From Nitrospirota bacterium (GTDB lineage: Bacteria > Nitrospirota > 9FT-COMBO-42-15 > HDB-SIOI813), in contig JACRHF010000025.1 in the NCBI GenBank assembly GCA_016217665.1, positions 1-41,847 of the forward strand: a DNA stretch of 41,847 nt, written 5' to 3'. Position numbers and translations under genes: made by a program. The notes under the pieces are model-generated. The model made no database searches. It saw only the letters and a program-made list of their open reading frames with translations, and was not told where the DNA came from. Positions within the stretch are counted from its first letter, which is position 1. Every line of letters starts with the position of its first letter. Shown piece after piece: positions 8,325 through 28,587 of the stretch.

Positions 8325-9863
8325 ATGAACCAAAACGCAGATCAGATCCTGGATCACGCCAACCTGTTCCGGGAACCGGAATATCTTGAGATGTTCGAGA
8401 AGAAACGGAAGGAATTCGAAAACCCCTGCGACTCGGACGAGATCGAGAAGATCCGGGAATGGACAAAGACCCCTGAATACCGGGAACTGAACTTTCAGCG
8501 GGAGGCCCTCACCGTCAACCCGGCCAAGGCCTGCCAGCCGCTTGGCGCCGTCTTCTGCGCCGTGGGATTCGAGGGGACCCTCCCCTTCGTTCACGGGTCT
8601 CAGGGGTGCGTGGCCTATTACCGGAGCCATCTCAGCCGCCACTTCAAGGAACCCTGCTCCTGCGTCTCTTCTTCAATGACGGAAGACGCGGCGGTGTTCG
8701 GGGGACTCAACAACATGATCGACGGCCTGGCCAACGCCTATGCGCTGTACAAGCCCAAGATGATCCATGTCTCCACCACCTGCATGGCCGAGGTGATCGG
8801 CGATGACCTCAACACCTTTATCAAGAATGCCAAGGCCAAGGGGTCCGTCCCGGAGGAATACGACGTCCCCTTCGCCCACACCCCGGCCTTCGTGGGGTCC
8901 CACATAGTAGGTTATGACAATGCGCTCAAAAGCATCCTCAGTCATTTCTGGGAAGGGAAAGAACGACAGCCGGGAGAGAAAATCAACTTGATCATGGGAT
9001 TCGACGGTTACACCGTGGGGAACATCCGGGAACTGAAGCGGATGCTGAACCTGATGAGTGTAAGCTATACGGTTCTATCGGATAACAGTGATATCTTCGA
9101 TACCCCCACGGACGGACAGTTCCGGATGTATGACGGCGGAACGACGCTTGAGGAGACGAAGAACGCCCTCCATGCAAAGGCCACGATTTCGATGCAGGAG
9201 TTCTGTACGGAAAAGACGCTGGAGTATGCGGCCTCCAAGGGTCAGGAGACGGTGGCCTTAAACCATCCTATCGGAGTTGCCGGAACCGATGAGTTTTTGA
9301 TAGAGGTTTCCCGAATTACAGGAAAGCCGATACCGCAGGAATTAGAAAAGGAGCGGGGCCGGCTGGTGGATGCCATCGCTGACTCTTCGGCCTACCTGCA
9401 CGGGAAGAGGTTCGCTCTTTACGGTGATCCGGACCTGACGCTCGGCCTGACGGCCTTCTTGCTGGAGCTGGGGGCCGAACCGGTCCATTCCCTGGCCACC
9501 AACGGCGGTAAGGAGTGGGAAGCAAAGGTCCAGGCGCTGTTCGACGCTTCTCCCTTTGGAAAGAACGGTCATGTTTATCCGGGGAAAGATCTATGGCATA
9601 TGCGCAGCCTCCTCTTCACGGAGCCGGTCGATTTTCTGATCGGGAATACCTACGGGAAATATCTGGAGCGGGACACGGGGACGCCGCTGATCCGGATCGG
9701 CTTTCCGATCTTCGACCGGCATCACCATCATCGCTATCCCATCATTGGCTATCAGGGGGCGATGAATGTCCTGGTCCGGATCCTGGACAAAGTGTTCGAA
9801 GAGTTGGACCGGAAAAGCAACGTGCCATCCAAGACGGATTACAGTTTTGACATTATTCGGTAA
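8325..9863 (+). CDS. nifK: Nitrogenase molybdenum-iron protein beta chain
   Basis: A 512-residue protein that completes the alpha2-beta2 MoFe protein and supplies the other P-cluster ligands: C70 (AKACQPLGA), C95 ([12 protein letters not shown]) and C153 ([11 protein letters not shown]), at the same positions as in Azotobacter numbering. The Ser of AFVGSHI matches the beta-Ser that can ligate the oxidised P-cluster. The N-terminal extension of about 60 residues before the core is typical of the classical NifK. The ribosome site is GGGGAG before ATG 8325. A REP-like hairpin lies just upstream. Confidence 0.98.
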
Positions 9864-9904
9864 TGGTAGGGGCGGTTCACCAACACCTCTACGGAGGGCA
9901 AACA

Positions 9905-11278: not shown

Positions 11279-11318
11279 TTTGTCTCCCTCCCCCGGCGGA
11301 GCCGTCGAAAGATAACTT

Positions 11319-12656: not shown

Positions 12657-12657
12657 A

Positions 12658-13056
12658 ATGAAAGTCGCCTTTGCCACACAGGACCTGGCCACGGCCAACG
12701 CGCATTTCGGCTGGGCCAGACACATTATGGTCTACGAGGTCACGCCGGACGCCTTCACGCACGTGAAGACGTACAATTTCGCCGGTAATCTTCAGGAAGA
12801 CGGGGACGAAGACAAGCTGATCCCCAAGCTGAAGGCCGTTAAGGATTGCGCCATTCTCTACGTGGCGGCCATCGGCGCCTCCGGGGCGGCCCGTGTCGTG
12901 GCCCAGAAGGTCCACCCGCTGAAGGTGAAGGAGTCGGAGCCGATCGTAAAGCTTCTCGAAAAACTCCAGGCGGTGCTCGGCGGGACCCCGCCCCCATGGC
13001 TTCGAAAGGCGATGCAGAAAGGACAGGAACGGGTGTTGGACTTCGAGGAGGACTAA
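12658..13056 (+). CDS. nifX: FeMo-cofactor carrier NifX
   Basis: A 132-residue protein of the dinitrogenase iron-molybdenum cofactor family ([22 protein letters not shown], then [14 protein letters not shown]), which carries NifB-co or VK-cluster between NifB and NifEN. I prefer ATG 12658, one base after the nifN stop and preceded by GGGAAGA, over an in-frame ATG at 12640 that has no ribosome site. It is followed by the DUF269 gene one base later, the usual nifX-DUF269 pairing. Confidence 0.93.
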
Positions 13057-13057
13057 C

Positions 13058-13570
13058 ATGGCGATGGAAGAACAAAAAACACCAACGGCAGGTGAGGCAT
13101 CGCTCCGCTCCGCCCAACAAACTCCCGACCCGATGGAGTCGGTTTTCATCAAGGAACTCGTTAAACAGTTCCGGGCCCAGGATGCGCATGGAGCCTGGGA
13201 TAAAAAGTCCGACCGGCAATTGATCGAACCATTGATCGTGGACAAGGAGAAACGGAAGACGATCCCGGTCGTCGGCGATCCCCATCCGGAGGTCTTGTGG
13301 CGGGTGGAGCTTTTTTACAATGCCGTCGGCATGACCATCGAACGACAGACCGGGATCATGGTTTCGCCGATGCTGAAGATGCATCACGAGGGGTTCGGGC
13401 GGATAGTCCTGACCGCCGGAAGACTGATTGTCGTTAACAAGTTCCTGCGGGACATCCACCGGTTCGGTTTCCCGACGATCGAGAAGATGGCGGAAGAAGG
13501 GGAGAAACTGGTAGCCACGGGAGTGGACATGATCGAAAAGTTCCCCGAGGCGGCCCAGCATGGGGAGTGA
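13058..13570 (+). CDS. NifX-associated DUF269 protein
   Basis: A 170-residue protein of the DUF269 (NifX-associated) family, recognisable from [34 protein letters not shown] and [21 protein letters not shown]. Its biochemical role is not established, but it nearly always follows nifX. The first 25 residues ([20 protein letters not shown]) are not conserved and appear to be encoded by a REP-like half-palindrome (13096-13118). A strong GGAGGA precedes the ATG, within the nifX coding end. Confidence 0.92.
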
Positions 13571-13591
13571 TTCATAGAAGGCGAGGTGAAC

Positions 13592-15109
13592 ATGGAACTG
13601 CCGATTCTGAACAATGCAAGCGCTCCGGACCCTACGGCGGGATGCAAGGCCAGGGGGAGTTGCGGCGACAGCCGCGACCCCGGGGATATGAACCCGGAGA
13701 CCTGGGAGAAGGTCAAGAACCACCCCTGCTACAGTGAGGAGGCCCATCACCACTACGCCCGGATGCACGTGGCCGTGGCGCCGGCCTGCAACATCCAGTG
13801 CCATTACTGCAACCGCAAGTACGATTGTGCCAATGAGAGCCGGCCCGGGGTGGTCAGCGAGCGGTTGACTCCTGAAGATGTGGTCAAGAAGGTTTTGGCC
13901 GTGGCCAGCGCCATCCCCCAGATGACGGTCATGGGAATTGCGGGCCCCGGAGATCCCCTGGCCAATCCCGACAAAACCTTCCGCACCTTCGAGCTGATCG
14001 CGGAGAAGGCCCCGGATATCAAGCTCTGTCTCTCCACCAATGGCCTGGCCCTCCCGGATTACGTGGACCGGATCAAGGCCCTGAATGTTGACCATGTGAC
14101 AATCACCATCAACATGATCGATCCGGAAGTAGGGGAGAGGATATATCCCTGGGTCTTTTACAAGCATAAGCGGTGGAAGGGGCGGGAGGCCTCCAGGATC
14201 TTAAGCGAGCGCCAGTTAGAGGGGCTTGACCTGCTTATGGCCAACGGCATCCTCTGCAAGGTGAACTCGGTGATGATCCCGGGGGTGAATGACGAACATC
14301 TGGTGGAGGTGAACAAGAAGGTCAAGTCGTTGGGGGCCTTCCTCCACAACATCATGCCGCTGGTCTCCGCTCCGGAACACGGAACCTATTACGGACTCAA
14401 CGGCCAGCGGGGACCGACCGCCAGGGAACTCAAGGCGTTGCAGGACAAGTGCGAAGTCCGGATGAATATGATGCGCCATTGCCGCCAGTGCCGGGCCGAC
14501 GCGGTGGGACTCCTCGGGGAAGACCGGAGTCATGAGTTTACTCTGGAAAAGATCCACGAGATGGACGTGGAATACGATCTCGAAAAGCGCCGGGCCTATC
14601 AGTTGGAGGTGGAGGCAAAGCGGCTGGAGACCCGCGCGACCAGGGAAGAGGGGCTGAAGGCAATGAAGGACGTTCAGACTGACCTGAAGATCCTCATCGC
14701 CATCGCCACGAAGGGCGAAGGGAAGGTCAACGAGCACTTCGGTCACGCCCGGGAGTTCCAAATCTACGAGGTCAGCCGCAAAGGGTGCAAGTTCGTCGGC
14801 CATCGCCGCGTGGATATGTATTGCCAGGGGGGTTGGGGAGAAGAGGACACCCTGGACACGGTGATCAAGGCGATCGTCGATTGCACGGCGGTCTTTGTCT
14901 CCAAGGTTGGGCGTTGTCCGCGGAAAACCCTCCATGCCGCCGGGATCGAACCGGTCGATCAGTACGCGTTCGATTTCATCGAAAAGTCGGCGCTGACCTA
15001 CTTCAAGGAATATGCGGAGAAGGTCCGGAAGGGAGAGATCGTCCATCAGGATCGGGGGGAGGCCTCGATCCGGACAGGGGCGATAGTTCCGGTTCCAATG
15101 GGAGGCTGA
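13592..15109 (+). CDS. nifB: Radical SAM FeMo-cofactor biosynthesis protein NifB with C-terminal NifX-like domain
   Basis: A 505-residue protein. Residues about 55-330 are the radical SAM domain, with the SAM-cluster motif [14 protein letters not shown] (C66, C70, C73) and further cluster cysteines in [12 protein letters not shown]. It builds NifB-co, the 8Fe-9S-C core, from 4Fe-4S clusters and SAM. Residues about 370-490 are a fused NifX-like domain ([23 protein letters not shown]). This two-domain form is the usual bacterial NifB. I chose ATG 13592 over the in-frame GTG at 13586. The 87-base gap after it holds no recognisable feature. Confidence 0.97.
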
Positions 15110-15196
15110 ACCTTAGTCCTGATCCCGGACACGCGGAGACGAAGGAAGAACTGAAGGCCAAGAGAGAATGTCTTCATGCCCTGGAGGGAAGAAGTG

Positions 15197-15463
15197 ATGC
15201 GCAAGGAGGATGTCGTCGAGTTGGAGGACCCTCCCCGTTTCGATTACGGGGTGAAGGTCTGTTCCCGGAAGGTGATCCGAAACGACGGGACATTTCCCGG
15301 CCGTCAGGTGGGTGATGTCTTAGTCGATAAAGGGGAAGTCGGATACGTCGCAAGCATCGGAACCTTCCTTCAGCAGTTCTACATTTACGGGGTCTATTTC
15401 CAGGAAAGAGGTTATTTCGTGGGGTGCAGGGCCAAGGAACTGGATCCGGTGGACGAGGAATGA
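15197..15463 (+). CDS. nifZ: NifZ-family P-cluster maturation protein
   Basis: An 88-residue protein with the NifZ core KVIRNDGTFPGRQVGDVLVDKGEVGYVASIGTFLQ. NifZ assists formation of the second P-cluster of NifDK. The start at ATG 15197 follows GGAGGG at good spacing; an ATG at 15176 lacks a ribosome site. It lacks the long C-terminal tail found in some NifZ proteins. nifW follows after four bases. Confidence 0.88.
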   Translation: MRKEDVVELEDPPRFDYGVKVCSRKVIRNDGTFPGRQVGDVLVDKGEVGYVASIGTFLQQFYIYGVYFQERGYFVGCRAKELDPVDEE

Positions 15464-15467
15464 GGTT

Positions 15468-15785
15468 ATGAGCGATCTCTGGGGGCGGTTCGATAAACTG
15501 GTGAACGCGGAAGACTTTCTCGACTTTTTCGAGATCCCATACGATTCCTGGGTGGTCGATGTCAACCGGCTTCATGTTCTGAAGAAGTTTTCCCTCTACA
15601 AACAAGAAATCGACCGGGAGGATTCCGGGATGACATCCGAGGAGCGATTTGCCCGTTACCGGGAGGCTATGCGGAAGGCCTACGAGACCTTTCTCACCTC
15701 GACGGCCCCGGAGCAGCGGCTCTTCAAGGTCTTTCAGCAGACTCCACTGGGACTGGTGACGATCGGGATCTCCCGAAAGGTGTGA
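15468..15785 (+). CDS. nifW: Nitrogenase-stabilising/protective protein NifW
   Basis: A 105-residue protein, the usual NifW length. The sequence shows the family pattern from LVNAEDFLDFFEIPYDSWVV through VNRLHVLKKFSLYKQEI to FKVFQQTPLGLVTI. NifW is thought to bind and protect apo-MoFe protein or assist its maturation. It lies between nifZ and nifT, consistent with this role. Confidence 0.9.
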   Translation: MSDLWGRFDKLVNAEDFLDFFEIPYDSWVVDVNRLHVLKKFSLYKQEIDREDSGMTSEERFARYREAMRKAYETFLTSTAPEQRLFKVFQQTPLGLVTIGISRKV

Positions 15786-15819
15786 TTTGAGTAGAGGTTT
15801 GGGCAATGGAGGAGGTAAT

Positions 15820-16029
15820 GTGAAAGTCATGATCCGTAAAAATTCAGAGGGGGTCTTCTCGGTTTATGTGGCCAAGAAGGACCTGGAGGAGCCGATCGTG
15901 GCGATGGAAAAGGACGACCTCTGGGGCGGGATGGTGACGCTGGCGAACGGCTGGCGTCTGGAACTCCCGGCTATGGCGCCGGACACGCGGCTTCCCATCA
16001 CGGTGGAGGTCCGGCGTGTGGCTGAGTGA
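15820..16029 (+). CDS. nifT: NifT/FixU protein
   Basis: A 69-residue protein with the NifT signature KVMIRKNSEGVFSVYVAKKD and LWGGMVTLANGWRLELP. The function is not settled; NifT is dispensable in some diazotrophs. I chose GTG 15820 because the strong GGAGGAGGT lies just before it and the family begins at this (M)KVMIR; an upstream TTG at 15787 would add eleven unconserved residues. Confidence 0.88.
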   Translation: MKVMIRKNSEGVFSVYVAKKDLEEPIVAMEKDDLWGGMVTLANGWRLELPAMAPDTRLPITVEVRRVAE

Positions 16030-16050
16030 TAGTGATAAGGAGTGTATGAG

Positions 16051-16365
16051 ATGAGCGCTGTGGAAGTGGTCACCGGAATCACACAAGGCGGCAAGGTCTG
16101 GTTCCCGCAATTCGTCCAGAGCATCGATACCTCGAAGTGTATCGGTTGTGGCCGGTGCTTCAGGGTCTGCGGCCGTGATGTGATGCGGCTGGTGGCTGTG
16201 GACGAGGACGGGACGTTGATTGAGATCGAAGATGAGGACGAGGAGTGCGAAAAGAAGGTGATGACCCTGCCCCATCCGGAGAACTGCATCGGGTGCGAGG
16301 CCTGTTTCCGGGTCTGCCCGAAACAATGCTACACCCACGGCCCCGTGCCGGCCGCGGGAACCTGA
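16051..16365 (+). CDS. fdxB: Nif-specific ferredoxin III (2x4Fe-4S)
   Basis: A 104-residue ferredoxin with two 4Fe-4S motifs, [11 protein letters not shown] and [15 protein letters not shown], separated by an acidic insert (EIEDEDEEC). This matches the FdxB/ferredoxin III type encoded in nif clusters. It likely feeds electrons to NifH or to cofactor assembly such as NifB. The start is ATG 16051 after AAGGAG. Confidence 0.92.
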
Positions 16366-16386
16366 GGAGAAGTGGAGGAGAATCGG

Positions 16387-16704
16387 ATGAAGATGGTACG
16401 AGCCATTATCCGCCCGGAGAAAGAGCAGGAGGTGGTCCTGGCCCTGGAGGGGGCCGGATTCCCTGCTGTCACCAAGTCCCATGTCTTCGGGCGGGGCAAA
16501 CAGAAGGGACTTCAGGTGGGGATCGTTCATTATGATGAGCTTCCCAAGCTGGTCCTCATGATGGTGGTGGAGGATCGAGATGTGGAAAGGGTGGTCCAGT
16601 TGATTTTAAAAACGGCCCATACGGGCAGCATCGGTGATGGGAAAATCTTTGTGAGCCCCATCGAGCAGGCCTACACTATCAGGACCGGGAAACAGGAGTT
16701 GTGA
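16387..16704 (+). CDS. nifI1: PII-like nitrogenase regulator NifI1
   Basis: A 105-residue PII-family protein (MVRAIIRPEKEQEVVLALEG, FGRGKQKGLQVG, HTGSIGDGKIFVSPIEQAYTIRTG). In methanogens and anaerobic bacteria the NifI1/NifI2 pair binds NifDK and blocks NifH access when nitrogen is available; 2-oxoglutarate and ATP relieve the block. The T-loop region lacks the uridylylated Tyr segment of GlnB. Usually nifI1-nifI2 lie between nifH and nifD; here they come after fdxB. The ATG follows GGAGGAG. Confidence 0.9.
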   Translation: MKMVRAIIRPEKEQEVVLALEGAGFPAVTKSHVFGRGKQKGLQVGIVHYDELPKLVLMMVVEDRDVERVVQLILKTAHTGSIGDGKIFVSPIEQAYTIRTGKQEL

Positions 16705-16706
16705 CA

Positions 16707-17126
16707 ATGAAAGAGATCATCGCGATTATTCGCCGGGACAAGCTCCCTGCAACCAAGAAAGCCCTGGATGGAATCGGCTGTTCGGGCATGACGATCTACA
16801 GTGTGGAAGGGCGGGGAAAGCAAAAAGGGAGGCTTTCAGAGATTGACCCGGAGATTCCGGAGCATTACGAAGGTGTTTCACGGATTATGATTCGACCGAC
16901 CCCTTCGGTCTATGCCCTGGGGCATCAGATCACCAAACCGGTCCTATATGTCCCCAAGCGGATGCTTCGGATCGTTGTCCCGGATGACCGAGTCAGCCTG
17001 GTGATCGATACCCTGATCCGGGTCAATCAGACAGGAGTCCACGGGGACGGCAAGATCTTTGTGGCCCCGGTGGAGGAGACCTGGCAGATTCGGACGTCAC
17101 AATCCGGAGAGGAGATACTGCAATGA
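16707..17126 (+). CDS. nifI2: PII-like nitrogenase regulator NifI2
   Basis: A 139-residue PII-family protein, longer than NifI1, as is usual for NifI2. Features are MKEIIAIIRRDKLPATKKAL, VEGRGKQKGRLSE and a long T-loop insertion around RPTPSVYALGHQITKPVLYVPKRM. The C-terminal part is GVHGDGKIFVAPVEETWQIRT. It starts two bases after the nifI1 stop with AGGAG eight bases before, and its own stop overlaps the next start. It forms the 2-oxoglutarate-sensing complex with NifI1 that controls nitrogenase activity. Confidence 0.9.
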   Translation: MKEIIAIIRRDKLPATKKALDGIGCSGMTIYSVEGRGKQKGRLSEIDPEIPEHYEGVSRIMIRPTPSVYALGHQITKPVLYVPKRMLRIVVPDDRVSLVIDTLIRVNQTGVHGDGKIFVAPVEETWQIRTSQSGEEILQ

Positions 17127-17338
17127 CAGAGACAATCACTCTCGATGAATTGAAGGCCCGGGTGAAGCGCCTCAGCTCCGAGGCGGGACGGTTGAAAATG
17201 GACCTGCATGACTTGGCCGAGGATCTGCCCAACGGATGGGAGAAAATTATGGAGGTGGCCCAGAGGACTTACCAGAAGTATGCTGAGCTGATGGCGGCAA
17301 GGCAACGACTGGTGAAGATGGAAAAGGCAGGCGGATGA
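17123..17338 (+). CDS. CCE_0567-type (DUF683) small helical protein
   Basis: A 71-residue, mostly helical protein with the family segment RLKMDLHDLAEDLPNGWEKI. CCE_0567/DUF683 proteins are regularly found in nif clusters near nifX and have been proposed to bind metal; their role is not established. The start overlaps the nifI2 stop, and its own stop overlaps the next start, so it sits in a tightly coupled string. Confidence 0.85.
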   Translation: MTETITLDELKARVKRLSSEAGRLKMDLHDLAEDLPNGWEKIMEVAQRTYQKYAELMAARQRLVKMEKAGG

Positions 17339-17589
17339 TTGAATGGGTGGAGAAGATAATTGAGGTCCTGGATGAGATCCGCCCCGATCTGATCGCGGAG
17401 GGTGGAGATGTCAGGCTGGCCGGTCTCGAAGAAGGGGTGGTCTATGTACGCATGGTGGGTCCGTTCACGGCATGGTGTCAGACCAAGCGCAGGGTGCTGA
17501 GGGACGTTGAACGGGTTTTGAAAGCAAGGGTTCCCTGGATTGAACGGATCGAGGCTGTCTGTCCGCCGCCGGGATCTCAGGCTCAATGA
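17335..17589 (+). CDS. NFU-domain-like protein lacking the CxxC motif
   Basis: An 84-residue protein that aligns by eye with the C-terminal NifU/NFU domain: IEVLDEIRPDLIAEGGDVRLAGLEEGVVYV, then PWIERIEAV. Where NFU proteins have the cluster-binding GACxxCP loop, this one reads VGPFTAWCQTKR, with only one cysteine. It is thus unlikely to bind a 4Fe-4S cluster in the usual way and may have a structural or carrier role. No full-length NifU is encoded in the island. The start overlaps the preceding stop. Confidence 0.75.
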   Translation: MIEWVEKIIEVLDEIRPDLIAEGGDVRLAGLEEGVVYVRMVGPFTAWCQTKRRVLRDVERVLKARVPWIERIEAVCPPPGSQAQ

Positions 17590-17598
17590 GGGTTTGTG

Positions 17599-18354
17599 AT
17601 GAATTCCGTAGCGGTTCGATATTTTGGCCACTCCTGTTTCGAGGTGACCTCGCAGGAAGGAGTTCGCTTGCTGATCGATCCGCATATAACGGGGAACCCT
17701 GCTTCTCCCCTGGGGCTGGAGGAGCTGGATCCGCCCGACCTGATCCTGGTGACCCATGCGGCCCCGGATCACCTGGGAGACACATTGGAGATTGTCAGAC
17801 AATCCGGGTGCCGCGTTTTCTGCGATCCTGCGGTGGATTATTACCTGAAGAGCCGAAAGATACCCCCGGTCCAAGTGCAACGGATGGTCTGGGGATTCCA
17901 TGTGCCGTTTCGGGGGATTCGGATCCGGGCAGTGGAGAGCCGGCACCACTCCACTCTCCGGTGGGATGGCCCGCCGGTGACCGGGATACCCCTGGGATTT
18001 ATGATCACCCTGGAATCGGGTCAGACCCTCTATCATGCTGGCGACACCTCTATTTTTGGCGACCTGAGGCTCTTTGGCGAGATCTACCGGCCAGAGGTGG
18101 CATTCCTTCCGGTGGGGAACTATCCTGGCTCCCATGCCGAGCTTTCCCCGGAGGAGGCGGCCCTGGCAGCGGCTTGGCTGGGAGTGAAGTGGGCCATCCC
18201 GATGCATTATGAGAAGGGATCAGATGCACCCTATCGTTTTGTGAATCAAGTGGCACACAAAGCACCGGGGGTCCAGGTGGTGTTGATAGAACCTGGAGAG
18301 CAGGTGATGATCGGGAGCGACCTGAAGCAGCATGAGGTGAGGATCGCAAGATGA
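17599..18354 (+). CDS. MBL-fold metallohydrolase (UlaG/UPF0173-like) in the nif operon
   Basis: A 251-residue metallo-beta-lactamase-fold protein. The start VAVRYFGHSCFEV and LLIDPHITGNPASPL fit the UlaG/UPF0173 group. Metal-site motifs are THAAPDHLGD, SRHHSTL, YHAGDTSIFGD and IPMHYEKGSD. The first motif has Ala where HxHxDH has its second His. The gene sits between the NFU-like gene and nifV, with a stop/start overlap to nifV. I know of no standard nif role for this family, so its substrate is open. Confidence 0.85.
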   Translation: MNSVAVRYFGHSCFEVTSQEGVRLLIDPHITGNPASPLGLEELDPPDLILVTHAAPDHLGDTLEIVRQSGCRVFCDPAVDYYLKSRKIPPVQVQRMVWGFHVPFRGIRIRAVESRHHSTLRWDGPPVTGIPLGFMITLESGQTLYHAGDTSIFGDLRLFGEIYRPEVAFLPVGNYPGSHAELSPEEAALAAAWLGVKWAIPMHYEKGSDAPYRFVNQVAHKAPGVQVVLIEPGEQVMIGSDLKQHEVRIAR

Positions 18355-19517
18355 TCAGAAAAGTATTTATCGACGATACCACACTCCGGGATGGGGAACA
18401 GGCCGCTGAAGTTTCCTTCACCCTGGAAGAGAAGCTTCAGATCGCCCGGATGCTGGATGAAATCGGGGTGGACCAGATTGAGGCCGGGACTCCAGCCATG
18501 GGAGGAGAAGAGCAAGAGGCCATCCGGGCCATTGCGGCGTCAGGGCTCCGGGCAGGCGTACTGGCCTGGTGCCGGGCGACCCAGTCGGATATTGACGCGG
18601 CACTGGCCTGTGGGGTGAAAGGGGTGAACATCTCCCTTCCGGTTTCTGACATCCATATCCAGCATAAACTCCAAAAGACACGTGCTTGGGTGCTGGCACA
18701 ACTGCGGTGGGCCCTTTCCTATGCCAAACGGCACGGCCTCTATGTCTCGGTGGGCGCGGAGGATGCCTCTCGGGCCGACAGGAGATTTCTCGCCCTGTAT
18801 GGGCGGATAGCTGCCGATCATGGGGCTGACCGGTTACGCTATTGTGACACAGTCGGCGTTCTGGATCCCTTTACAACCTATGAGGCTATCCGTGCTCTGA
18901 AGGAGCAGGTTGGGATCTCCCTTGAGATTCATACCCACAACGACTTCGGCCTGGCGACGGCCAATGCCCTGGCGGCGGTGAAGGCAGGAGCCAGCTATGT
19001 GAATACCACTATCAACGGTCTTGGCGAGCGGGCTGGCAATGCTGCCCTGGAAGAGGTTGTGATGGCCCTTGAGCATCTCGATGGGATTTCCCGTCTTGTA
19101 AAAACGGAAGGGCTGGTCTCCCTTTGCCAAGAGGTGGCTCGAGCTTCTGGTTCCCCCATTCCTCCCTGGAAGGCCATTATAGGCCGCAATGCTTTCGCCC
19201 ACGAGTCTGGCATCCACGTGGACGGACTTCTGAAAGCCCGGCAGACCTATGAGGCTTTTGATCCGAAAGATCTGGGGTTGAACCACCGGATTGTGATCGG
19301 GAAACACTCGGGGACCCACGCCGTCCGGTTCTATTTCGCCCGGCTGGGGATCTTCCTGACCGAGGCGGAATCCCGGGCCCTGCTGGAGCCGATCCGGCGA
19401 CTGGCCTCGCTCCGGAAACGTTCTCTCTCCGCGGATGAGCTGCGGGGAATTTACGAAGGGGTTCCGGGGACTTCGAGCAAAAGCGAAGGAGGAAACCTGC
19501 ATTGGAAGATCTCCTGA
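18351..19517 (+). CDS. nifV: Homocitrate synthase NifV
   Basis: A 388-residue enzyme that condenses acetyl-CoA and 2-oxoglutarate to homocitrate, the organic ligand of FeMo-cofactor. The family motifs are DTTLRDGEQ (N terminus), HTHNDFGLATAN (metal-binding His pair) and AFAHESGIHVDGLL. There is no C-terminal regulatory LeuA domain, which fits NifV rather than isopropylmalate synthase. Its start overlaps the hydrolase stop, and its 3' end overlaps the hesA start. Confidence 0.93.
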   Translation: MIRKVFIDDTTLRDGEQAAEVSFTLEEKLQIARMLDEIGVDQIEAGTPAMGGEEQEAIRAIAASGLRAGVLAWCRATQSDIDAALACGVKGVNISLPVSDIHIQHKLQKTRAWVLAQLRWALSYAKRHGLYVSVGAEDASRADRRFLALYGRIAADHGADRLRYCDTVGVLDPFTTYEAIRALKEQVGISLEIHTHNDFGLATANALAAVKAGASYVNTTINGLGERAGNAALEEVVMALEHLDGISRLVKTEGLVSLCQEVARASGSPIPPWKAIIGRNAFAHESGIHVDGLLKARQTYEAFDPKDLGLNHRIVIGKHSGTHAVRFYFARLGIFLTEAESRALLEPIRRLASLRKRSLSADELRGIYEGVPGTSSKSEGGNLHWKIS

Positions 19518-20290
19518 TCGATCGAGCGTCGTCCGCCAAATCAGTCCTCCTTTCGGACCCCGGCCATTCCCGGTATCGGCGGCAGCTTCTGTTGAAAGGG
19601 ATCGGCCCGGAAGGGCAGGAGAAGCTCCGGCGGGCCACCGTGCTGGTGGCGGGGGTCGGGGGGCTCGGCGGCGCCGTTGCTCTCTATCTGGCGGCGGGTG
19701 TGGGCAGACTCGTTCTCGTCCATGCCGGGCCGATCGACCTGCCTGACCTCAACCGTCAGATCCTGATGACAGACGCGGGGATCGGCCGGAGCAGGGTACA
19801 TGTCGCCCGCGAGACCCTCCATCGGTTCAATCCGGAGGTCCGTGTGGACGTGGTGGATGATCGATCGCACGAAGGGAATATCAGCGATCTCCTCCAGGAG
19901 GCCGACCTATCGGTCAGTTGCCGCTACAACTTCGAAGAACGGGATCTCCTTAACAGGGCCTCGGTCACTTCCGGAAAGCCGGTGGTGGAGGCAGCCATGT
20001 ACGGGATGGAGTTCTATCTGACGACCTTGATTCCAGGCGCAACTCCTTGTTTGCGATGCATCTACCCGGAGTTTCCCTCCTGGGACCCGTTGGGGTTCCC
20101 GGTCCTCGGGGCGGTCTCCGGAACCCTGGGCTGCCTGGCAGCGGCCGAAGCGGTTAAACTCATCACCGGAATGGGTCAACCTCTTCGAGGCACGCTCCTT
20201 TACGGGGATCTCTCGGACATGACCTTCCGGAAGTTCCGGGTCAAAAGGCAACCCGGCTGTTTCGTGTGCGGAGACGGTGATGGAATATGA
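19502..20290 (+). CDS. hesA: HesA/MoeB/ThiF-family adenylyltransferase
   Basis: A 262-residue E1-like protein. The nucleotide loop is VLVAGVGGLGGAVALYLA, followed by DLPDLNRQIL, typical of the MoeB/ThiF/HesA group, and two Cys pairs near the C-terminal half (CLRC and CFVC) that likely bind zinc. HesA homologues are common in nif clusters and may supply sulfur or aid molybdenum handling; the exact reaction is unknown. It begins at a TTG at 19502, nine bases after AAGGAGG, inside the end of nifV. I see no better in-frame start. Confidence 0.85.
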   Translation: MEDLLIDRASSAKSVLLSDPGHSRYRRQLLLKGIGPEGQEKLRRATVLVAGVGGLGGAVALYLAAGVGRLVLVHAGPIDLPDLNRQILMTDAGIGRSRVHVARETLHRFNPEVRVDVVDDRSHEGNISDLLQEADLSVSCRYNFEERDLLNRASVTSGKPVVEAAMYGMEFYLTTLIPGATPCLRCIYPEFPSWDPLGFPVLGAVSGTLGCLAAAEAVKLITGMGQPLRGTLLYGDLSDMTFRKFRVKRQPGCFVCGDGDGI

Positions 20291-21882: not shown

Positions 21883-22224
21883 TCACTTCTTCGGGATCTC
21901 TACGATGACATCCCCATAGACATGGGTCTGACAGCCAAGGCGGGATGTCAGTGTTAAGCCTTTTGCCTTATCGAGCATGTCATCCTCTTCATCTTCCATT
22001 TCAGAGAGGTTCTCCATCCCCCCTTTGACGATGATGTGACAGGTGGTGCATGCACAATTGCCGCCGCAGTTATGTTCCAGGGGAATGTCATGCCTCAGGG
22101 CGATCTCAAGGACAGACTCCCCCTTCTCACCTTCAACAGTCACATCCAGCGGCTGGAAGGTGACCTTTACCCTTTTTTCCGTTGCTGTTTCAGCCCCATG
22201 ATAGTCACTTAACTTCGTTTCCAT
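21883..22224 (-). CDS. fdx: ISC-type 2Fe-2S ferredoxin
   Basis: A 113-residue adrenodoxin-type ferredoxin. The cluster ligands are in HNCGGNCACTTCH (C-x5-C-x2-C), with the fourth Cys in SRLGCQTHV. The acidic helix LSEMEDEEDDMLDKA is typical of ISC Fdx and interacts with IscS. It supplies electrons for sulfur reduction during cluster assembly on IscU. The N-terminal twelve or so residues are not conserved. Confidence 0.92.
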   Translation of the reverse strand: METKLSDYHGAETATEKRVKVTFQPLDVTVEGEKGESVLEIALRHDIPLEHNCGGNCACTTCHIIVKGGMENLSEMEDEEDDMLDKAKGLTLTSRLGCQTHVYGDVIVEIPKK

Positions 22225-22244
22225 GTCTCATGCCTATCGAATCC

Positions 22245-22598
22245 TTATGTAGTAAAAGACGACCCGCAGCCACAGCTTCCCTTGGCCAGGGGATTGATAA
22301 ATTTAAAGCCTCCGCCTGTAAGACCGCTGGTGTAATCGATCGTCGTACCGGAGAGATACAAGGCGCTCTTCACATCGATGATCACCTTGATCCCATCCGT
22401 CTCATAGGTCTGGTCATCAGATTTGACCTCATTGTCAAAATTCATGGTGTAGGTGAATCCGGCACAACCTCCGCCTGTGACGCCGATCCGGAGCCCGGCC
22501 CCCTCGATCTTGTTATCAGCCATAATCCGCTTGACAGCCTTTACGGCCTCTTCAGTCAAAGTGACCGGATGGCTTGTAGTCGTAGTAGTCGTTTCCAT
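22245..22598 (-). CDS. iscA: A-type Fe-S carrier protein (IscA/ErpA)
   Basis: A 117-residue A-type carrier. The three conserved cysteines are C45 (GGGCAGFTY), C109 and C111 (GSCGCGSSF). It accepts clusters or iron and passes them to target enzymes. The N terminus begins with a run of six threonines (METTTTTTSH), a low-complexity stretch that may vary. It sits between iscU and fdx. Confidence 0.92.
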   Translation of the reverse strand: METTTTTTSHPVTLTEEAVKAVKRIMADNKIEGAGLRIGVTGGGCAGFTYTMNFDNEVKSDDQTYETDGIKVIIDVKSALYLSGTTIDYTSGLTGGGFKFINPLAKGSCGCGSSFTT

Positions 22599-22617
22599 AT
22601 TTTCCCCTCCTTACTGA

Positions 22618-23004
22618 TTACTCGTTTCCATTATGACTCCTCTTATAATCATCGATGGCGGCCTTGATCGCATCTTCAGCTAATACCGAGCAGTGGATCT
22701 TGACAGGCGGCAGGTGCAGGGTCTCCACGATCTCTGTATTTTTGATCGTCATGGCCTCATCCAAGGTCTTCCCCTTAACCCACTCGGTCGCTAAGCTGGA
22801 GCTTGCTATGGCGCTGCCGCATCCGAAGGTCTTAAACTTCGCATCGACGATAACCCCGTTATCAATCTTTAACTGGAGCTTCATCACATCCCCGCATTCC
22901 GGGGCCCCGACAATGCCTGTTCCCACATCCTTCGAATCCTTCTCAAAACTCCCGACATTCCGCGGATTGTTGTAGTGGTCGACGACTTCATCACTGTATG
23001 ACAT
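22618..23004 (-). CDS. iscU: Fe-S cluster scaffold IscU
   Basis: A 128-residue scaffold, the normal IscU length. The cluster-binding residues are C37 with D39 (APECGDVM), C62 (FGCGSAIAS) and C105 (KIHCSVLAED). The LPPVK segment is the HscA-binding site in enterobacteria; it is kept here (HLPPVKIHC) though no hscA or hscB is in this operon. Confidence 0.95.
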   Translation of the reverse strand: MSYSDEVVDHYNNPRNVGSFEKDSKDVGTGIVGAPECGDVMKLQLKIDNGVIVDAKFKTFGCGSAIASSSLATEWVKGKTLDEAMTIKNTEIVETLHLPPVKIHCSVLAEDAIKAAIDDYKRSHNGNE

Positions 23005-23020
23005 ATTTAAACACCTCCCT

Positions 23021-24235
23021 TTAGTCCTTTCTCCACTTGACCTGTTTCAGGTCAACACCTGCCTTGACCATCTCATAGAGGGGAGACATCTCCCTTAGCC
23101 GGTTGACAGTCTCTATCACCCTGCCGATCACATAGTCTACCTCTTTCTCTGTATTGAACCTTCCAAGGCCAAATCTTACCGACGAGTGCGCAAGCTCTAT
23201 GCCGATCCCAAGGGCCTGTAATACATAAGAGGGCTCCAGCGTTGCTGAGGTGCAGGCCGAACCCGATGAGAGCGCTACTTCCCTGAGCCCCATCAGCATG
23301 GATTCCCCTTCCACATAGGCAAAGCTGAGGTTCAGATTACCCGGCATCCTCTTCGCTGGATGCCCGTTAAGATAGACCTCTTCCAGAGCCCCCATGAGCC
23401 CGCTGCGCAGCCTTTCCCTGAGGCGCAAGAGCCGGGCGGCCTCCTCATCCATTACCTCCATGGCAATCTCACAGGCCTTTCCAAATCCGACAATACCCGG
23501 GACATTGAGTGTCCCGGAACGCATCCCTCGTTCATGTCCGCCACCATCCATCATCGGGGCAAGCCGGACGCGGGGATTCTTACGCCTTACATAAAGGGCC
23601 CCTATCCCCTTTGGCCCATAGAGCTTGTGCGCTGTAAAAGACAAAAGATCAATCCCCATCGCCTGGACATCCACCTTCACCTTTCCAACACCCTGGGTGG
23701 CATCACAGTGAAATAGGACACCCCTTTCTTTGGCGATCTTTCCAATCTCCTCAACAGGCTGTATGACCCCTATCTCATTATTGACCAGCATGATGGAGAT
23801 CAGGATCGTCCTGTCCGTAATCGCCTTCCTGACCTCCTCAGGGTCCACAAGGCCCTCCCGGTCCACAGGGAGATAGGTCACCCTGATCCCTGACTTCTCA
23901 AGCCGTTTCGCCGTATCCAGTACAGAGCGGTGTTCTGTCACCTGGGTGATGATGTGATCCCCCTTCTCTGCGTACATCTCTGCCACCCCTTTAAGGGCGA
24001 GGTTATTGGACTCTGTAGCCCCGCTTGTAAAGATGATCTCCTTAGGGTCCGCATGGATAATCTTCGCAAGCCTCTCCCGCCCAACCTCTACCGCCTTGTC
24101 CGCGTCCCAGCCGAAACTGTGGTTGCGGCTCGCCGCATTCCCGAAGTGAACGGTAAAATAGGGGATCATCTCCTCCACCACCCCCGGGTCAACCCTGGTG
24201 GTAGAATGATTGTCCATGTAGATAGGCAGATTCAT
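23021..24235 (-). CDS. iscS: Cysteine desulfurase IscS
   Basis: A 404-residue PLP enzyme that removes sulfur from cysteine for Fe-S assembly. The PLP lysine lies in [15 protein letters not shown], and the catalytic Cys in [17 protein letters not shown], the long-loop form of class I (IscS/NifS) enzymes. ATG 24235 is better placed (five bases after GGAGG) than the adjacent ATG 24238. With no nifS in the island, this enzyme may also serve nitrogenase cluster synthesis. Confidence 0.94.
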
Positions 24236-24253
24236 CATTTCCTCCTTTTTTGC

Positions 24254-24278
24254 GGGGACAGATTTTAAATCTGTCCCC
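24254..24278. repeat. GGGGACA-type palindromic repeat
   Basis: GGGGACAGATTT, one T, then AAATCTGTCCCC: a perfect 12-bp inverted repeat with a single-base spacer between iscR and iscS. The last base overlaps the iscR stop codon. It shares its outer GGGGACAGATTTA-type arm with the element at 28046-28120. Confidence 0.8.
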
Positions 24279-24703
24279 TAAATCTCACTTGGTTCAAAAG
24301 ATTCTGTCAACTCTGCAAGGGTGGTCTTGTTTAACAGCTCTAAAATCCTGTACTCCAACTTCTGCATCGGTGTCCTGATATTGCACTTCTCAAACTGACA
24401 GCACTTGACACGGGCCTCCTCAGAACAGTCAAGGATGTTCAGATCCCCATTCAGGGTCTCTATTATCTTGGCTACCGTAATCGCAGAGGGGTTCAGACTG
24501 AGGGAGTACCCCCCTTTGGGACCACTCACACTGGTAATAATCCCCCCTTTGACCATCCGCTGAAGTATCTTGGCCAGGAGTTCTAAAGGGATATCGTAGG
24601 CCTCTGCGATCTCTTTGGTATTGACCACCTTTTCATTGTAATTCGAAGCGATATAGGCTATGGCCATCAATCCGTAATCCACCTTTTTTGTTAACTTCAG
24701 CAT
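24278..24703 (-). CDS. iscR: Rrf2-family transcription regulator (IscR-like)
   Basis: A 141-residue Rrf2 protein. An N-terminal winged helix (KKVDYGLMAIAYIAS ... GPKGGYSLSL) is followed by a cysteine cluster C93, C101, C102, C107 (LDCSEEARVKCCQFEKC) that would hold an Fe-S cluster, as in IscR. It is the first gene of the ISC operon, and a palindrome matching Rrf2-type sites overlaps the promoter. Autorepression according to Fe-S status is expected. Confidence 0.92.
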   Translation of the reverse strand: MLKLTKKVDYGLMAIAYIASNYNEKVVNTKEIAEAYDIPLELLAKILQRMVKGGIITSVSGPKGGYSLSLNPSAITVAKIIETLNGDLNILDCSEEARVKCCQFEKCNIRTPMQKLEYRILELLNKTTLAELTESFEPSEI

Positions 24704-24829: not shown

Positions 24830-25013
24830 CCTCGGTGGAGGGGGGGCCGTTTTCCCTTCGCTCCTGGCCTTCGCAGTTGACCTATCTAAGACTCGCAGGC
24901 GGGGAAGCCTTCCAGCCTCTAACGGGCTGGCTTTCCTCCGCCTGCTCGCTTTGATAGGTGCCCAACTGCTCTCGGCAAGTCGCTCAGGGAAAACGGCCCC
25001 CCCTCCACCGAGG
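24830..25013. repeat. Long nested inverted-repeat element
   Basis: A 28-base arm (24830-24857) is matched exactly by its reverse complement at 24986-25013. Inside, further stems nest in order: GCAGTTG/CAACTGC, CTATC/GATAG, GCAGGCGG/CCGCCTGC and CCAGCC/GGCTGG around a short loop, separated by small bulges. The whole 184 bases could fold as one long hairpin. It fills most of the 417-base gap between the iscR and APH-like starts and codes for nothing convincing. A MITE-like repeat or a structured RNA are both possible. Confidence 0.75.
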
Positions 25014-25120: not shown

Positions 25121-26215
25121 ATGCCTGAACTAAACAGAGAAAGGCTGGAAGGATATCTTTCCTCCATCTATAAGACACAGGTACGTATAGGCTCCATCAG
25201 TGAGATCGGTAAAGAAGGGGTCAGTGGTCTTAAGGGCTTTGGATATGGGATACCCTATGTCATATCCTTTTCCGTAGACAGTGAGGTTAAGAGGGTGGTG
25301 CTGGAGACCATGTCACCCAATAGCTTCGGCCATGACCACTTCTCAGACAGGGCACAGGGCCTTCTGTGGGACCACTCTGCCTTTAACAGACTGCCACGAC
25401 ATGTACGGTCTATAGATGCAGGGGCCTTTACCCAGGATGGACAGATTATCTCTGTCGGTGAGGCAGAGGAGTTCTTCATCCTGACAGAGTTTGCAGAAGG
25501 GGCCGGATATGATCAGGACTTAAAGAGGATAGCCTCGACCGGAAAGATGGGGTCCATGGATGAGGACCGGGCAAAGACCCTTGCAGGATACCTCGTCTCT
25601 ATCCATCGCGTCAAAATGGATGCCCCTCATCTTTATACCCGGAGGATCAGGGACCTCATCGGACATGGGGAATGCATCATGGGGCTTATAGACAACTACC
25701 CGCCGGGACATTCTTTCATCACATCAAACCTGCTGCAGAGGATCGAAAAGGGGTGTGTCGCCTGGCGATGGAAGATCAAGGGCCTCGGACACCGCCTGTG
25801 TCAGGTGCATGGCGACTTTCATCCATGGAATATCCTCTTCCGGGAGGGGACAGACTATACGGTGTTAGACCGGGCAAGAGGGGAGTGGGGTGAGCCCGCA
25901 GATGATGTGGGGACAATGGTCATCAACTACATCTTCTTCTCATTACAGCGGTATGGCCGGCTGGAAGGGGACTTTGAGAGGCTCTATTCCACTTTCTGGA
26001 AAACGTATATGGACGCTGCAGGGGATGTCGAAATGCTCAAAGTAATACAGCCATTCCTGGCCTGGAGGGGACTGGTCATAGCTAATCCATTATGGTATCC
26101 TGCGCTCTCCCCTGAGGTCAGAAAGGGATTGTTTAATTTTATAGAAAATGTCCTTGCGAATGAGGAGTTCAGGCCGGAAAAGGCCAATGAATATCTGGAC
26201 ATTAATCCCCCCTAA
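25121..26215 (+). CDS. APH-family phosphotransferase (small-molecule kinase)
   Basis: A 364-residue protein with the aminoglycoside-phosphotransferase/choline-kinase catalytic loop QVHGDFHPWNILF and the metal-binding DRARGEWGEPADDVG region. The N-terminal lobe has GIPYVISFSVDSEVKRVVLETM, with the ATP-anchoring strand. Resistance is unlikely to be the role; such kinases phosphorylate sugars, choline or other hydroxyl compounds. It is followed by an APS-kinase-like gene and archaeal-type MAT, suggesting a shared pathway. I prefer ATG 25121 over an in-frame TTG at 25088. The last codons and stop (DINPP) are supplied by a C-rich palindromic repeat. Confidence 0.78.
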   Translation: MPELNRERLEGYLSSIYKTQVRIGSISEIGKEGVSGLKGFGYGIPYVISFSVDSEVKRVVLETMSPNSFGHDHFSDRAQGLLWDHSAFNRLPRHVRSIDAGAFTQDGQIISVGEAEEFFILTEFAEGAGYDQDLKRIASTGKMGSMDEDRAKTLAGYLVSIHRVKMDAPHLYTRRIRDLIGHGECIMGLIDNYPPGHSFITSNLLQRIEKGCVAWRWKIKGLGHRLCQVHGDFHPWNILFREGTDYTVLDRARGEWGEPADDVGTMVINYIFFSLQRYGRLEGDFERLYSTFWKTYMDAAGDVEMLKVIQPFLAWRGLVIANPLWYPALSPEVRKGLFNFIENVLANEEFRPEKANEYLDINPP

Positions 26216-26242
26216 CCCCCCTTTAATAAAGGGGGGGGATTT
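26204..26242. repeat. C6/G6-type palindromic repeat carrying the APH stop codon
   Basis: AATCCCCCCTAACCCCCC, then TTTAATAAAGGGGGGGGATT: complementary C- and G-runs form a hairpin. It gives the upstream gene its last two Pro codons and its TAA stop. A close relative is at 37651-37699. Confidence 0.75.
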
Positions 26243-26257
26243 TTGAGAGGAGGTCCA

Positions 26258-26785
26258 ATGAGTGAAGGCTTTGCCATATGGATCACGGGGCTGCCAGCCT
26301 CAGGGAAGACTGCCCTGGCAGAGGTCATCATCCGAAGGCTCGATGAATGGTATGGGATGAAAGTGACCCACCTGGAATCCGATACCCTTCGGAAGATCCT
26401 GACCCCGGAACCGACCTACTCTCTCAAAGAGAGGGACTGGTTCTATGAGGTCATGACATTTATGGGGCAAATGCTGACAACCAACGGGATTAGTGTTATA
26501 TTGGATGCTACTGCAAACAGGAAAAGACACCGGAATAAAGCCCGGACCTCCATCACCAAATTCATGGAGGTCTATGTCAAATGCCCCCTGCAGAGCTGTA
26601 TGGCAAGGGACCCCAAGGGGATCTATCAGATGGCGCAGATGGGAAAGGCCGCCACGGTCCCGGGGATACAGGATGTGTATGAGGAGCCGGAGGCGCCGGA
26701 GATCATCATAGAGTCCGACAGGGTCTCGCCGGAGGAGGGGGCCGAACATGTCCTCGCAGGGCTGAAGGAAAAAGGATGGGTATAG
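26258..26785 (+). CDS. APS-kinase-like (CysC-type) kinase
   Basis: A 175-residue P-loop kinase. The Walker A is GLPASGKT, and KGIYQMAQMGKAATVPGIQDVYEEPEAPE resembles the KGLYxxA..G...GID.PYE.P.APE segment of APS kinases. The substrate motifs differ: HLESDTLRKIL replaces LDGDNVRHGL, and DATANRKRHRNKAR replaces the SPISPYRxDRxxAR segment. It may thus phosphorylate a related but different compound. No sulfate-reduction gene is nearby. The ATG follows GAGGAGGTCC, and MAT follows 15 bases after the stop. Confidence 0.8.
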   Translation: MSEGFAIWITGLPASGKTALAEVIIRRLDEWYGMKVTHLESDTLRKILTPEPTYSLKERDWFYEVMTFMGQMLTTNGISVILDATANRKRHRNKARTSITKFMEVYVKCPLQSCMARDPKGIYQMAQMGKAATVPGIQDVYEEPEAPEIIIESDRVSPEEGAEHVLAGLKEKGWV

Positions 26786-26800
26786 GGACACAGGTGAATA

Positions 26801-28018
26801 ATGGATATCTTTGTTGAACGATTGAGCGGCCTGTCTGTCGCCGAACGGAAGGTCGAGATCGTAGAAAGAAAAGGCATCGGGCATCCGGACTCCATTTGCG
26901 ATGCCATTATGGAAGAGGTGTCCTTAGCGCTCAGTCATGAGTATATGAACCGCTTCGGTGTCATCCTTCATCACAACATTGATAAGGGGCTCCTGGTCGC
27001 AGGAGGTGTAGAGCGGAGGTTCGGCGGCGGCAGGGTAACAGAACCGATGCGGCTCGTATTTGGTGACCGGGCTACTTTCAAAACAGATAACAAGACGATA
27101 CCGGTTAAAGATATCGTCATCACTACCGCAAAGCAGTGGCTTAAAGATAACCTGAGATTTATAGACCCGGATGTTCATGTGAAATATCAGGTGGAGATCA
27201 GGCCCGCATCGCAGGAACTCCAGGATATATTCTCGCGGGGCGGCGGCGTCCTTGGGGCCAATGACACCTCTGCGGCAGTCGGTTATGCCCCTCTGACTGA
27301 GACCGAGAGTGTGGTATTGGATACTGAGTTATATCTGAATTCAAAGGAATTTAAGGACCGGTTTCCTGAGACCGGCGAGGATATCAAGATTATGGGTTTC
27401 AGGAAAGAGCGCGATTTGACGCTGATTATCGCCATGCCGTTTATCGACAGATATATCGCAGATGAGTCCTCCTATTTTGCAAAAAAGGGGAGCGTCTATC
27501 AGGCCATAGGGGATTTTGTCCGCTCAAGATGTAAGGGTCTTAATAGGCTTAATAAGATCGATATCCGCCTTAATGCGCTGGACAGGGAGGGACGGGGTCT
27601 TGGGGGCATATATCTGAGTGTCCTCGGGACATCTGCAGAGGATGCAGACTCCGGCGAGGTAGGTCGGGGGAACAGGGTAAACGGGATTATCGCGTTGAAC
27701 CGGCCCTCGGCAGCCGAGGCGGCCGCCGGGAAGAATGCCGTAAGCCATGTGGGCAAGATCTATAACATACTGGCGCACAAGACAGCCCATACGATCTATG
27801 AGAGTATCGATGGGATAAAGGAGGTGTATGTCTGGCTTGCAAGCCAGATAGGAACACCGATTAACATGCCTGTCATCGCATCGGCACAGGTCTTACTGGA
27901 ACACCGGGCCTCATTTCCTTCGATCAGGAGGAAGATCGGGGAGATCATTAATAAAGAACTGTCAGAAATGGATATGTTTTGCAACGAACTGCTGCAAGGG
28001 AAATATCCTGTATGCTAA
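26801..28018 (+). CDS. Archaeal-type S-adenosylmethionine synthetase
   Basis: A 405-residue protein of the archaeal MAT family, which is unrelated in detail to bacterial MetK. Diagnostic stretches are ERKGIGHPDSICDAIME, HHNIDKGLLVAGGV, GANDTSAAVGYAPLTETE and GRGNRVNGIIALNRP. It makes AdoMet from methionine and ATP. It is the third gene of a plus-strand set with two kinases. Presence in a bacterium suggests transfer from archaea at some point or an old bacterial lineage of this family. Whether a bacterial metK exists elsewhere cannot be seen. Confidence 0.93.
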   Translation: MDIFVERLSGLSVAERKVEIVERKGIGHPDSICDAIMEEVSLALSHEYMNRFGVILHHNIDKGLLVAGGVERRFGGGRVTEPMRLVFGDRATFKTDNKTIPVKDIVITTAKQWLKDNLRFIDPDVHVKYQVEIRPASQELQDIFSRGGGVLGANDTSAAVGYAPLTETESVVLDTELYLNSKEFKDRFPETGEDIKIMGFRKERDLTLIIAMPFIDRYIADESSYFAKKGSVYQAIGDFVRSRCKGLNRLNKIDIRLNALDREGRGLGGIYLSVLGTSAEDADSGEVGRGNRVNGIIALNRPSAAEAAAGKNAVSHVGKIYNILAHKTAHTIYESIDGIKEVYVWLASQIGTPINMPVIASAQVLLEHRASFPSIRRKIGEIINKELSEMDMFCNELLQGKYPVC

Positions 28019-28045
28019 GGAGCAGTGAATAGTGAATAGAAAGGT

Positions 28046-28120
28046 GGAAAAGGGGACAGATTTATTTTTCCCCTTAACAGCTCGGCATTATAGGGGAAAA
28101 ATAAATCTGTCCCCTTTTCC
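28046..28120. repeat. GGGGACA-type palindrome with perfect 29-bp arms
   Basis: The 29 bases at 28046-28074 are exactly complementary to 28092-28120, with a 17-base loop. The arm contains GGGGACAGATTTATTTTTCC, the type of palindrome seen as dispersed REP elements in Deltaproteobacteria and Nitrospirota. It lies between MAT and the DksA-like gene and could also terminate transcription from the MAT side. Confidence 0.85.
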
Positions 28121-28158
28121 AGTCAAACAGAGTTAACCCGTAAGGAGGTCGGTATCCT

Positions 28159-28587
28159 ATGGCGACAAAGAAAAAGAAAGAGGCGCTCCGGAAGATGCTG
28201 GTGGAAAAGAAACGGGAGGTTTGGGGTGATATCAAAGAAAGGCTTTTTGAACAGCTCGGCAAGGAATACAGGCGTGAGATAGAGACGGCCCTCGATGAAG
28301 GGGACAGGGCCCTGGCCAATCTTGCTGAGGAGACAGGCATTACCATAGTCAATCTCCGGAAAGACATGCTGGAGAAGATAGACCGTGCCTTAGAGAAGCT
28401 CGATCAAGGTACCTATGGCATCTGTGAGGACTGCGGGGGAGAGATCAGCGAACAGCGTCTGAAGGCAGTCCCCTTTGCCATCTATTGCATCGAATGCAAG
28501 CAGAAGAGGGAGGAGCTGGAACAGATAGAACAGGAACGGGAGCCCTTCGGCGCCCCGGCACCCCCTGAGGTGGGAGAGGAGATCTAA
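28159..28587 (+). CDS. DksA/TraR-type C4 zinc-finger protein
   Basis: A 142-residue protein. A basic, coiled-coil N-terminal half is followed by the four-Cys finger CEDC-x17-CIEC, as in DksA/TraR family proteins that enter the RNA polymerase secondary channel. The sequence YGICEDCGGEISEQRLKAVP is typical. Unlike classic DksA, the tip with the DxxDxA motif is not evident. AAGGAGGT precedes the ATG. A promoter-proximal palindromic repeat ends 38 bases upstream. Confidence 0.9.
   Translation: MATKKKKEALRKMLVEKKREVWGDIKERLFEQLGKEYRREIETALDEGDRALANLAEETGITIVNLRKDMLEKIDRALEKLDQGTYGICEDCGGEISEQRLKAVPFAIYCIECKQKREELEQIEQEREPFGAPAPPEVGEEI

Follow-up and report, generated by a model that had tools for sequence, protein, structure and literature searches.

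A conserved pair of small-molecule kinase genes in bacteria and archaea, joined in some lineages by an archaeal-type methionine adenosyltransferase

Introduction

The canonical APS kinase, CysC (TIGR00455/PF01583), is the closest described counterpart of the central gene of the locus reported here. The two proteins share the fold, the P-loop, the catalytic Asp and Lys, an ATP-stacking Arg and the Arg pair that holds the phosphosulfate, but LDGD of CysC is replaced by LESD, IS-P-Y by T-A/G-N-R/K, FTG by VPG (with Phe576 becoming Val) and Asn500 by Phe; the kinase described here also forms a separate clade, has an APH-family partner and occurs in genomes without ATP sulfurylase. Cj1415 of Campylobacter jejuni, which we take to be a CysC relative by homology, is likened here by description and offers a precedent for a CysC-related kinase with another nucleotide as acceptor. 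It is a cytidine diphosphoramidate kinase that phosphorylates the 3'-OH of a non-APS nucleotide (PMC11800397), although it belongs to a capsule pathway and has no APH partner.

The first gene of the locus has the fold of 5-methylthioribose kinase and other APH-superfamily kinases, together with their Brenner-type HGDFHPxN motif and the metal-binding Asp that follows it; sequence similarity to them is weak, however, and the protein has its own conserved DRSRGEWGEPADD motif. Rv2004c is an APH plus AAA_33 protein. Proteins of the Rv2004c type, from the mycobacterial DosR regulon, are likened to the pair by description: they combine an APH-like kinase with a P-loop kinase in a universal-stress context, but as a single fused protein and with another P-loop family. 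An M. abscessus ortholog of Rv2004c belongs to the predicted DosR regulon and lies beside Usp genes (PMC10034137). Archaeal methionine adenosyltransferase (MAT; PF01941, NF003363) is matched over its full length by the third gene product, which scores over the equivalog cut-off and mostly keeps the AdoMet-binding residues; here, however, the host is a bacterium, the gene exists beside a canonical MetK and it is linked to two kinases. In the literature we found no description of the kinase pair, of the pair in Nitrospira, of bacterial archaeal-type MAT operons or of AmmeMemoRadiSam neighbourhoods.

Results

The three genes lie on the forward strand of the window (i.e. the whole stretch of 41,847 nucleotides that was analysed), with gaps of 42 nt between the APH and kinase genes and 15 nt between the kinase and MAT genes (Table 1). 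Their open reading frames were confirmed, and the original prediction of three genes in near-contact, encoding two small-molecule kinases and an archaeal-type AdoMet synthetase, agrees with their Pfam matches (PF01636, PF01583 and PF01941). The hairpin between the first two genes is a dispersed sequence with two copies in the window and is a possible attenuator. Control of the MAT gene by a SAM riboswitch was rejected, as the window has no Rfam match. The cluster (F4/c35) to which the zinc-finger protein belongs was found downstream of MAT in nine loci, with its order kept in families f1 and f3, and probably reflects synteny rather than membership of the module. A mobile or phage origin was rejected, with no plasmid match for the kinase and no phage match for the APH protein.

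Table 1. Features of the locus, with positions in the window.
Feature	Position	Strand	Basis
Small-molecule kinase of the APH superfamily (364 aa), at the head of the module	25121..26215	+	PF01636 28.9 bits; own conserved family; AF2 model
Hairpin with T-rich tail between the APH and kinase genes	26216..26236	+	9-bp GC-rich stem, then Ts
APS-kinase-fold P-loop kinase, 'LESD/DATANRR' clade, 175 aa	26258..26785	+	PF01583 120.9 bits; separate 100/100 clade; AF2 model
Archaeal-type methionine adenosyltransferase, 405 aa	26801..28018	+	PF01941 526 bits, NF003363 640 bits
DksA/TraR-type C4 zinc-finger protein, 3' of MAT	28159..28587	+	NF033459 75 bits, below cut-off 105

Inverted repeats flank the genes: one of 40 nt (88% complementary, 104 nt apart) directly 5' of the APH gene at 24830-25013, and a perfect one of 30 nt with a GGGGACAGATTTATTTTTCCCC core after MAT at 28045-28121. 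The latter has 11 matches per strand genome-wide (≤2 mismatches), many of them paired, and is a dispersed REP-like element. Just upstream of the APH gene, genes on the reverse strand (21883-24703) read as IscR, IscS, IscU, IscA and ferredoxin. From translations only, the stretch from 5803 to 20290 holds nitrogenase genes in the order nifH, D, K, E, N, X-like and B, followed by a homocitrate-synthase-like and then a ThiF/HesA-like gene.

Conservation of this neighbourhood was surveyed using one genome per species of bacteria and archaea, which gave 80 named kinase loci. The APH gene adjoins the kinase gene in 76 of these; among the other four, L096 has its kinase at a contig end, and L099, L111 and L115 are real exceptions. 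Wherever both genes were present they were on the same strand (104/104 loci, some genomes being counted twice), overlapping or abutting in 40 and with a 4-nt overlap in 20. A search of 61 Nitrospirota genomes returned kinase orthologs of ∼44–79% identity, with APH directly upstream in nearly all. The linkage of APH and kinase is far beyond chance. The genes of the predicted three-gene set are indeed neighbours elsewhere, and in other phyla, but the conserved unit proved to be the kinase pair, with MAT as an optional addition.

The pair was found in Nitrospirota, Methylomirabilota (NC10), Acidobacteriota, Myxococcota, Chloroflexota and Planctomycetota, and further in two Betaproteobacteria bins, Bathyarchaeota, one Crenarchaeota bin and Geoarchaeota, the archaeal genomes being MAGs. 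Taxa represented by a single bin may be binning errors; the taxonomic breadth is independent of those bins. The kinase is patchy in Acidobacteriota (>250 bits in 2 of 149 genomes, the next score being 181), which suggests that it reached this phylum by horizontal transfer. The APH gene and the LESD kinase are an undescribed unit spread across many bacteria and some archaea.

The two genes also coincide at the level of whole genomes. Both were present in 35 of the 61 Nitrospirota genomes, APH only in two, the kinase only in one and neither in 23 (Fisher p = 1.8e-13, in a test that ignores relatedness); among good-quality genomes the corresponding counts were 27, 0, 1 and 15. The two APH-only genomes are fragmentary, and the kinase-only genome has its kinase at a contig end. 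Four families (f4, f11, f13 and f15) carry a sister kinase, of LRMD type, and a diverged APH that lies on another contig or at a distance, and their co-presence while unlinked indicates that the coupling outlives linkage. In f4, the diverged APH gene is followed by an inositol-monophosphatase-family (Inositol_P) gene in five loci (L195, L198, L200, L202 and L203), which are all the f4 loci that reach that far; in most of these loci, cobyric-acid-synthase-like and CbiB-like genes also come after it, and the f4 LRMD kinase adjoins CbiG and a corrin methylase gene. A cobamide link for this LRMD group, e.g. as an L-threonine kinase (CblS/BluE) near cobalamin genes, is possible and is offered as a lead only.

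The motifs first noticed in the kinase (LESD, DATANRKRHR, KGIYQMA and YEEPEAPE) are all present, and its proposed position outside the canonical APS kinases was borne out by a tree in which the LESD clade and the LRMD group together split from them with 100/100 support. The protein matches APS_kinase in Pfam and scores 129 bits against the NCBIfam equivalog TIGR00455, short of its cut-off of 138.7. An AF2 model (pLDDT 95.6) superimposes on the Archaeoglobus APS kinase with a TM-score of 0.94 (rmsd 1.2 Å to 7yq1). Residues were mapped in 110 aligned clade members with the Mtb CysC-APS complex as guide, which provides the acceptor and catalytic roles, e.g. that of the phosphosulfate-binding Arg pair (PMC4373884). 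Conservation is 100% for the base Asp, the catalytic Lys, the Arg that stacks on ATP and the phosphosulfate-binding Arg pair; D42, K120, R45 and R59, which correspond to Mtb Asp480, Lys562, Arg483 and Arg497, are invariant. The LDGD and ISPY motifs and the adenine-stacking Phe pair are not kept: G479 is replaced by Ser (LESD), S524-P525-Y526 by A/G-N-R/K (TAN(R/K)), Phe492 by Tyr and Phe576 by Val. Loss of the second adenine-stacking Phe does not settle the matter, as Leu occupies this site in the Archaeoglobus APS kinase. The original view that the substrate motifs are changed is therefore right for LDGD and SPY, but it does not extend to the invariant Asp, Lys and Arg positions. With these residues kept and LDGD, SPY and the second Phe replaced, the kinase is active-looking in its sequence, and the predicted acceptor pocket is altered on the adenine side; because the catalytic residues and both phosphosulfate Arg are retained, the acceptor may be a compound related to APS (i.e. 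anionic, ribosyl or nucleotide-like).

The APH protein belongs to its superfamily by a PF01636 match over the cut-off, if weakly (28.9 versus 23.2 bits), by an APH-like fold in its AF2 model (pLDDT 84) and by an HGDxxxxN motif, present as HGDFHPWNILF together with LDRARGEWGEPADD. It represents a well-conserved family of its own, with a mean column identity of 66% over 20 diverse members. Profile comparison with MtnK gave no recognisable sequence similarity (E 0.96). Assigning the protein from a solved structure was rejected, the closest structures being in the sequence twilight zone.

The MAT protein matches PF01941 (AdoMet_Synthase) and passes the equivalog cut-off of NF003363 (640 versus 557 bits). 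In alignment it keeps H30, H59, N61, L142, Y268 and D280 of the AdoMet-binding residues described for P. furiosus MAT (PMC8727953), with D141 replaced by Glu. A housekeeping role was rejected, as the source genome also has a canonical MetK, next to an ahcY-like gene, on another contig (G000:C18). The archaeal-type MAT was found in 24 of the 61 Nitrospirota genomes, 21 of which also have the kinase pair; in two of the three MAT genomes without the kinase (G005 and G028), MAT lies at a contig end. Conversely, 15 of the 36 kinase-bearing Nitrospirota genomes have no archaeal-type MAT. MAT is the next gene after the pair in families f1 and f7 and in one Manganitrophaceae, one NC10 and one Acidobacteria genome, at a distance of -4 to 20 nt in L033, L034, L048, L059, L088, L089, L090 and the window; one gene intervenes in f3, MAT is unlinked in f6, and Nitrospira (f9; e.g. 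G053, contig 5, CABVRX010000005) has the pair without it. MAT is thus an optional third member of the module and a second MAT beside MetK.

Genes near the pair vary among lineages. NAPRT lies near it in 23 loci, Acidobacteria and Chloroflexi included, and an Inositol_P-family gene follows it in Bathyarchaeota; in two Acidobacteria, the Inositol_P-family neighbours are HAL2-type PAP phosphatases that score over the cut-off. UspA/stress, NAPRT and inositol-phosphatase-family genes neighbour the pair at least as often as AdoMet-related genes. A gene for an AmmeMemoRadiSam radical-SAM protein lies near the triad, MAT or diverged APH in three loci (L090:5769-6887, L099:9881-10969 and L197:10448-11419), and MEMO-like genes are also present in L058 and L199. 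Family f6 (L043, L102 and L162) has a ThiI plus NFACT-R_2 protein upstream of the pair; downstream lies a family of 148-aa proteins that neither Pfam nor NCBIfam matches.

Discussion

The best explanation as a whole, and one we consider somewhat probable, is that APH and the kinase are a functional pair on one small-molecule pathway. What is observed is that the two genes are linked on one strand, often with translational coupling, in many phyla of two domains, that genomes have both even where they are unlinked, and that the APS-kinase-like enzyme keeps its catalytic residues; these observations best support a functional pair of kinases acting outside sulfate assimilation, and its reaction is inferred as follows. 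Both kinases would transfer the γ-phosphate of ATP to hydroxyl groups, either on a single metabolite or on intermediates that follow one another. For the APS-kinase-like enzyme, the probable substrate is a ribosyl or nucleotide-like compound bearing an anionic group, since both phosphosulfate-holding Arg are invariant. Where lineages encode inositol-monophosphatase-family enzymes beside these genes, those enzymes would take a phosphate off again. The source organism is among the lineages whose operon has apparently gained an archaeal-type MAT, a possible supplier of AdoMet or a similar adenosyl compound for the pathway; the pathway itself would lie outside sulfate assimilation and often be sited among stress (UspA) genes. 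The neighbouring genes tend towards nucleotide, NAD and AdoMet chemistry. This tendency is in keeping with, but does not prove, ribose-hydroxyl chemistry by an APS-kinase fold and an APH fold like that of methylthioribose kinase; because the neighbours differ between lineages, they spell out no single pathway. The two kinases could also act on different compounds within one process.

This kinase is probably something other than an ordinary APS kinase, and we regard it as improbable that it merely has drifted motifs, makes PAPS and sits among incidental neighbours. The nearly identical fold and the retained anion-binding Arg and catalytic residues would favour such a role, as would the fact that it is the only APS_kinase-family gene found in the source genome (77% complete), which has an ATP sulfurylase on contig C35 (L204, G000:C35) near genes that read as aprA/aprB; with Sat present and no other APS kinase found, an ordinary role in this genome is possible. 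Sat near AprA/AprB-like genes is also an observation in its own right, in that the organism seems to carry dissimilatory-type sulfur genes. Against PAPS synthesis stand the separate clade, the score under the TIGR00455 cut-off, the near-universal APH partner and the genomic context: the window lacks nearby sulfate assimilation genes, as first stated, and none were seen beside the kinase in any of the loci examined. Several genomes (e.g. G004, G014 and G053) have both this kinase and a canonical APS kinase. Searches for both ATP sulfurylase types found no Sat and no CysD in the kinase genomes G063, G072 (a single-chromosome MAG, CP070783.1), G074 and G083, which speaks against an APS-kinase role there, although many of the genomes are incomplete MAGs in which a missing ATP sulfurylase may be an assembly gap. 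Placing the pair instead in salvage of AdoMet by-products, where APH would phosphorylate a ribose modified at position 5 (methylthioribose or 5-deoxyribose) and the kinase a downstream intermediate, seems very improbable. The APH model finds its best fold matches among 5-methylthioribose kinases (E 4.8e-8), MAT is within the operon and in L090 and L099 the AmmeMemoRadiSam gene adjoins the triad or MAT, but the TM-score of those matches is only about 0.5, the mycobacterial kinase 3ats fits better (0.60), the MtnK sequence match is negligible and no mtnA/mtnP-type neighbour was recognised.

We think it rather unlikely that the two kinases serve as an effector of stress or dormancy, induced alongside universal stress proteins and with a role like that of Rv2004c in the DosR regulon. 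Usp genes are enriched within ∼15 kb of the pair (7 of the 10 genomes tested; 24 observed versus 1.4 expected), HPF-type and Lon-type genes adjoin it in Nitrospira, and the M. abscessus ortholog of Rv2004c has a similar setting (PMC10034137); however, no Usp gene was found near the pair in the window's family (G000 and G003) or in G063, and the archaeal loci lie among housekeeping genes. Such a role names a context and not a reaction, and is compatible with a functional pair. That MAT is a mere syntenic neighbour without a functional tie to the kinases is a minority reading that we take seriously: MAT is absent in Nitrospira and unlinked in f6, and its tree is consistent with adjacency having been gained or lost only a few times, so the linkage may be inherited. 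Tight linkage in Nitrospirota, NC10 and Acidobacteria argues against this, as do the 21 of 24 MAT genomes that hold the kinase, with two of three exceptions at contig ends, and the redundancy of MAT with MetK. A dedicated AdoMet pathway is put forward as a hypothesis. Its boldest form, in which the three genes make up an undescribed cofactor pathway, would have one kinase after the other modify an adenosyl or ribosyl metabolite and MAT build a non-standard AdoMet-like cofactor from a phosphorylated or otherwise unusual analogue of ATP or methionine; it would account for the retention of a second MAT in addition to MetK, and we hold it to be very doubtful.

A two-kinase unit of bacteria and archaea points to a metabolite or pathway so far undescribed. 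Automatic annotation can read the pair as 'APS kinase' plus 'aminoglycoside phosphotransferase'; as the pair is common in Nitrospira, models of nitrifier metabolism that assign the kinase gene to PAPS synthesis would probably be in error. Lineages that carry MAT offer a handle on why some bacteria retain a second, archaeal-type AdoMet synthetase.
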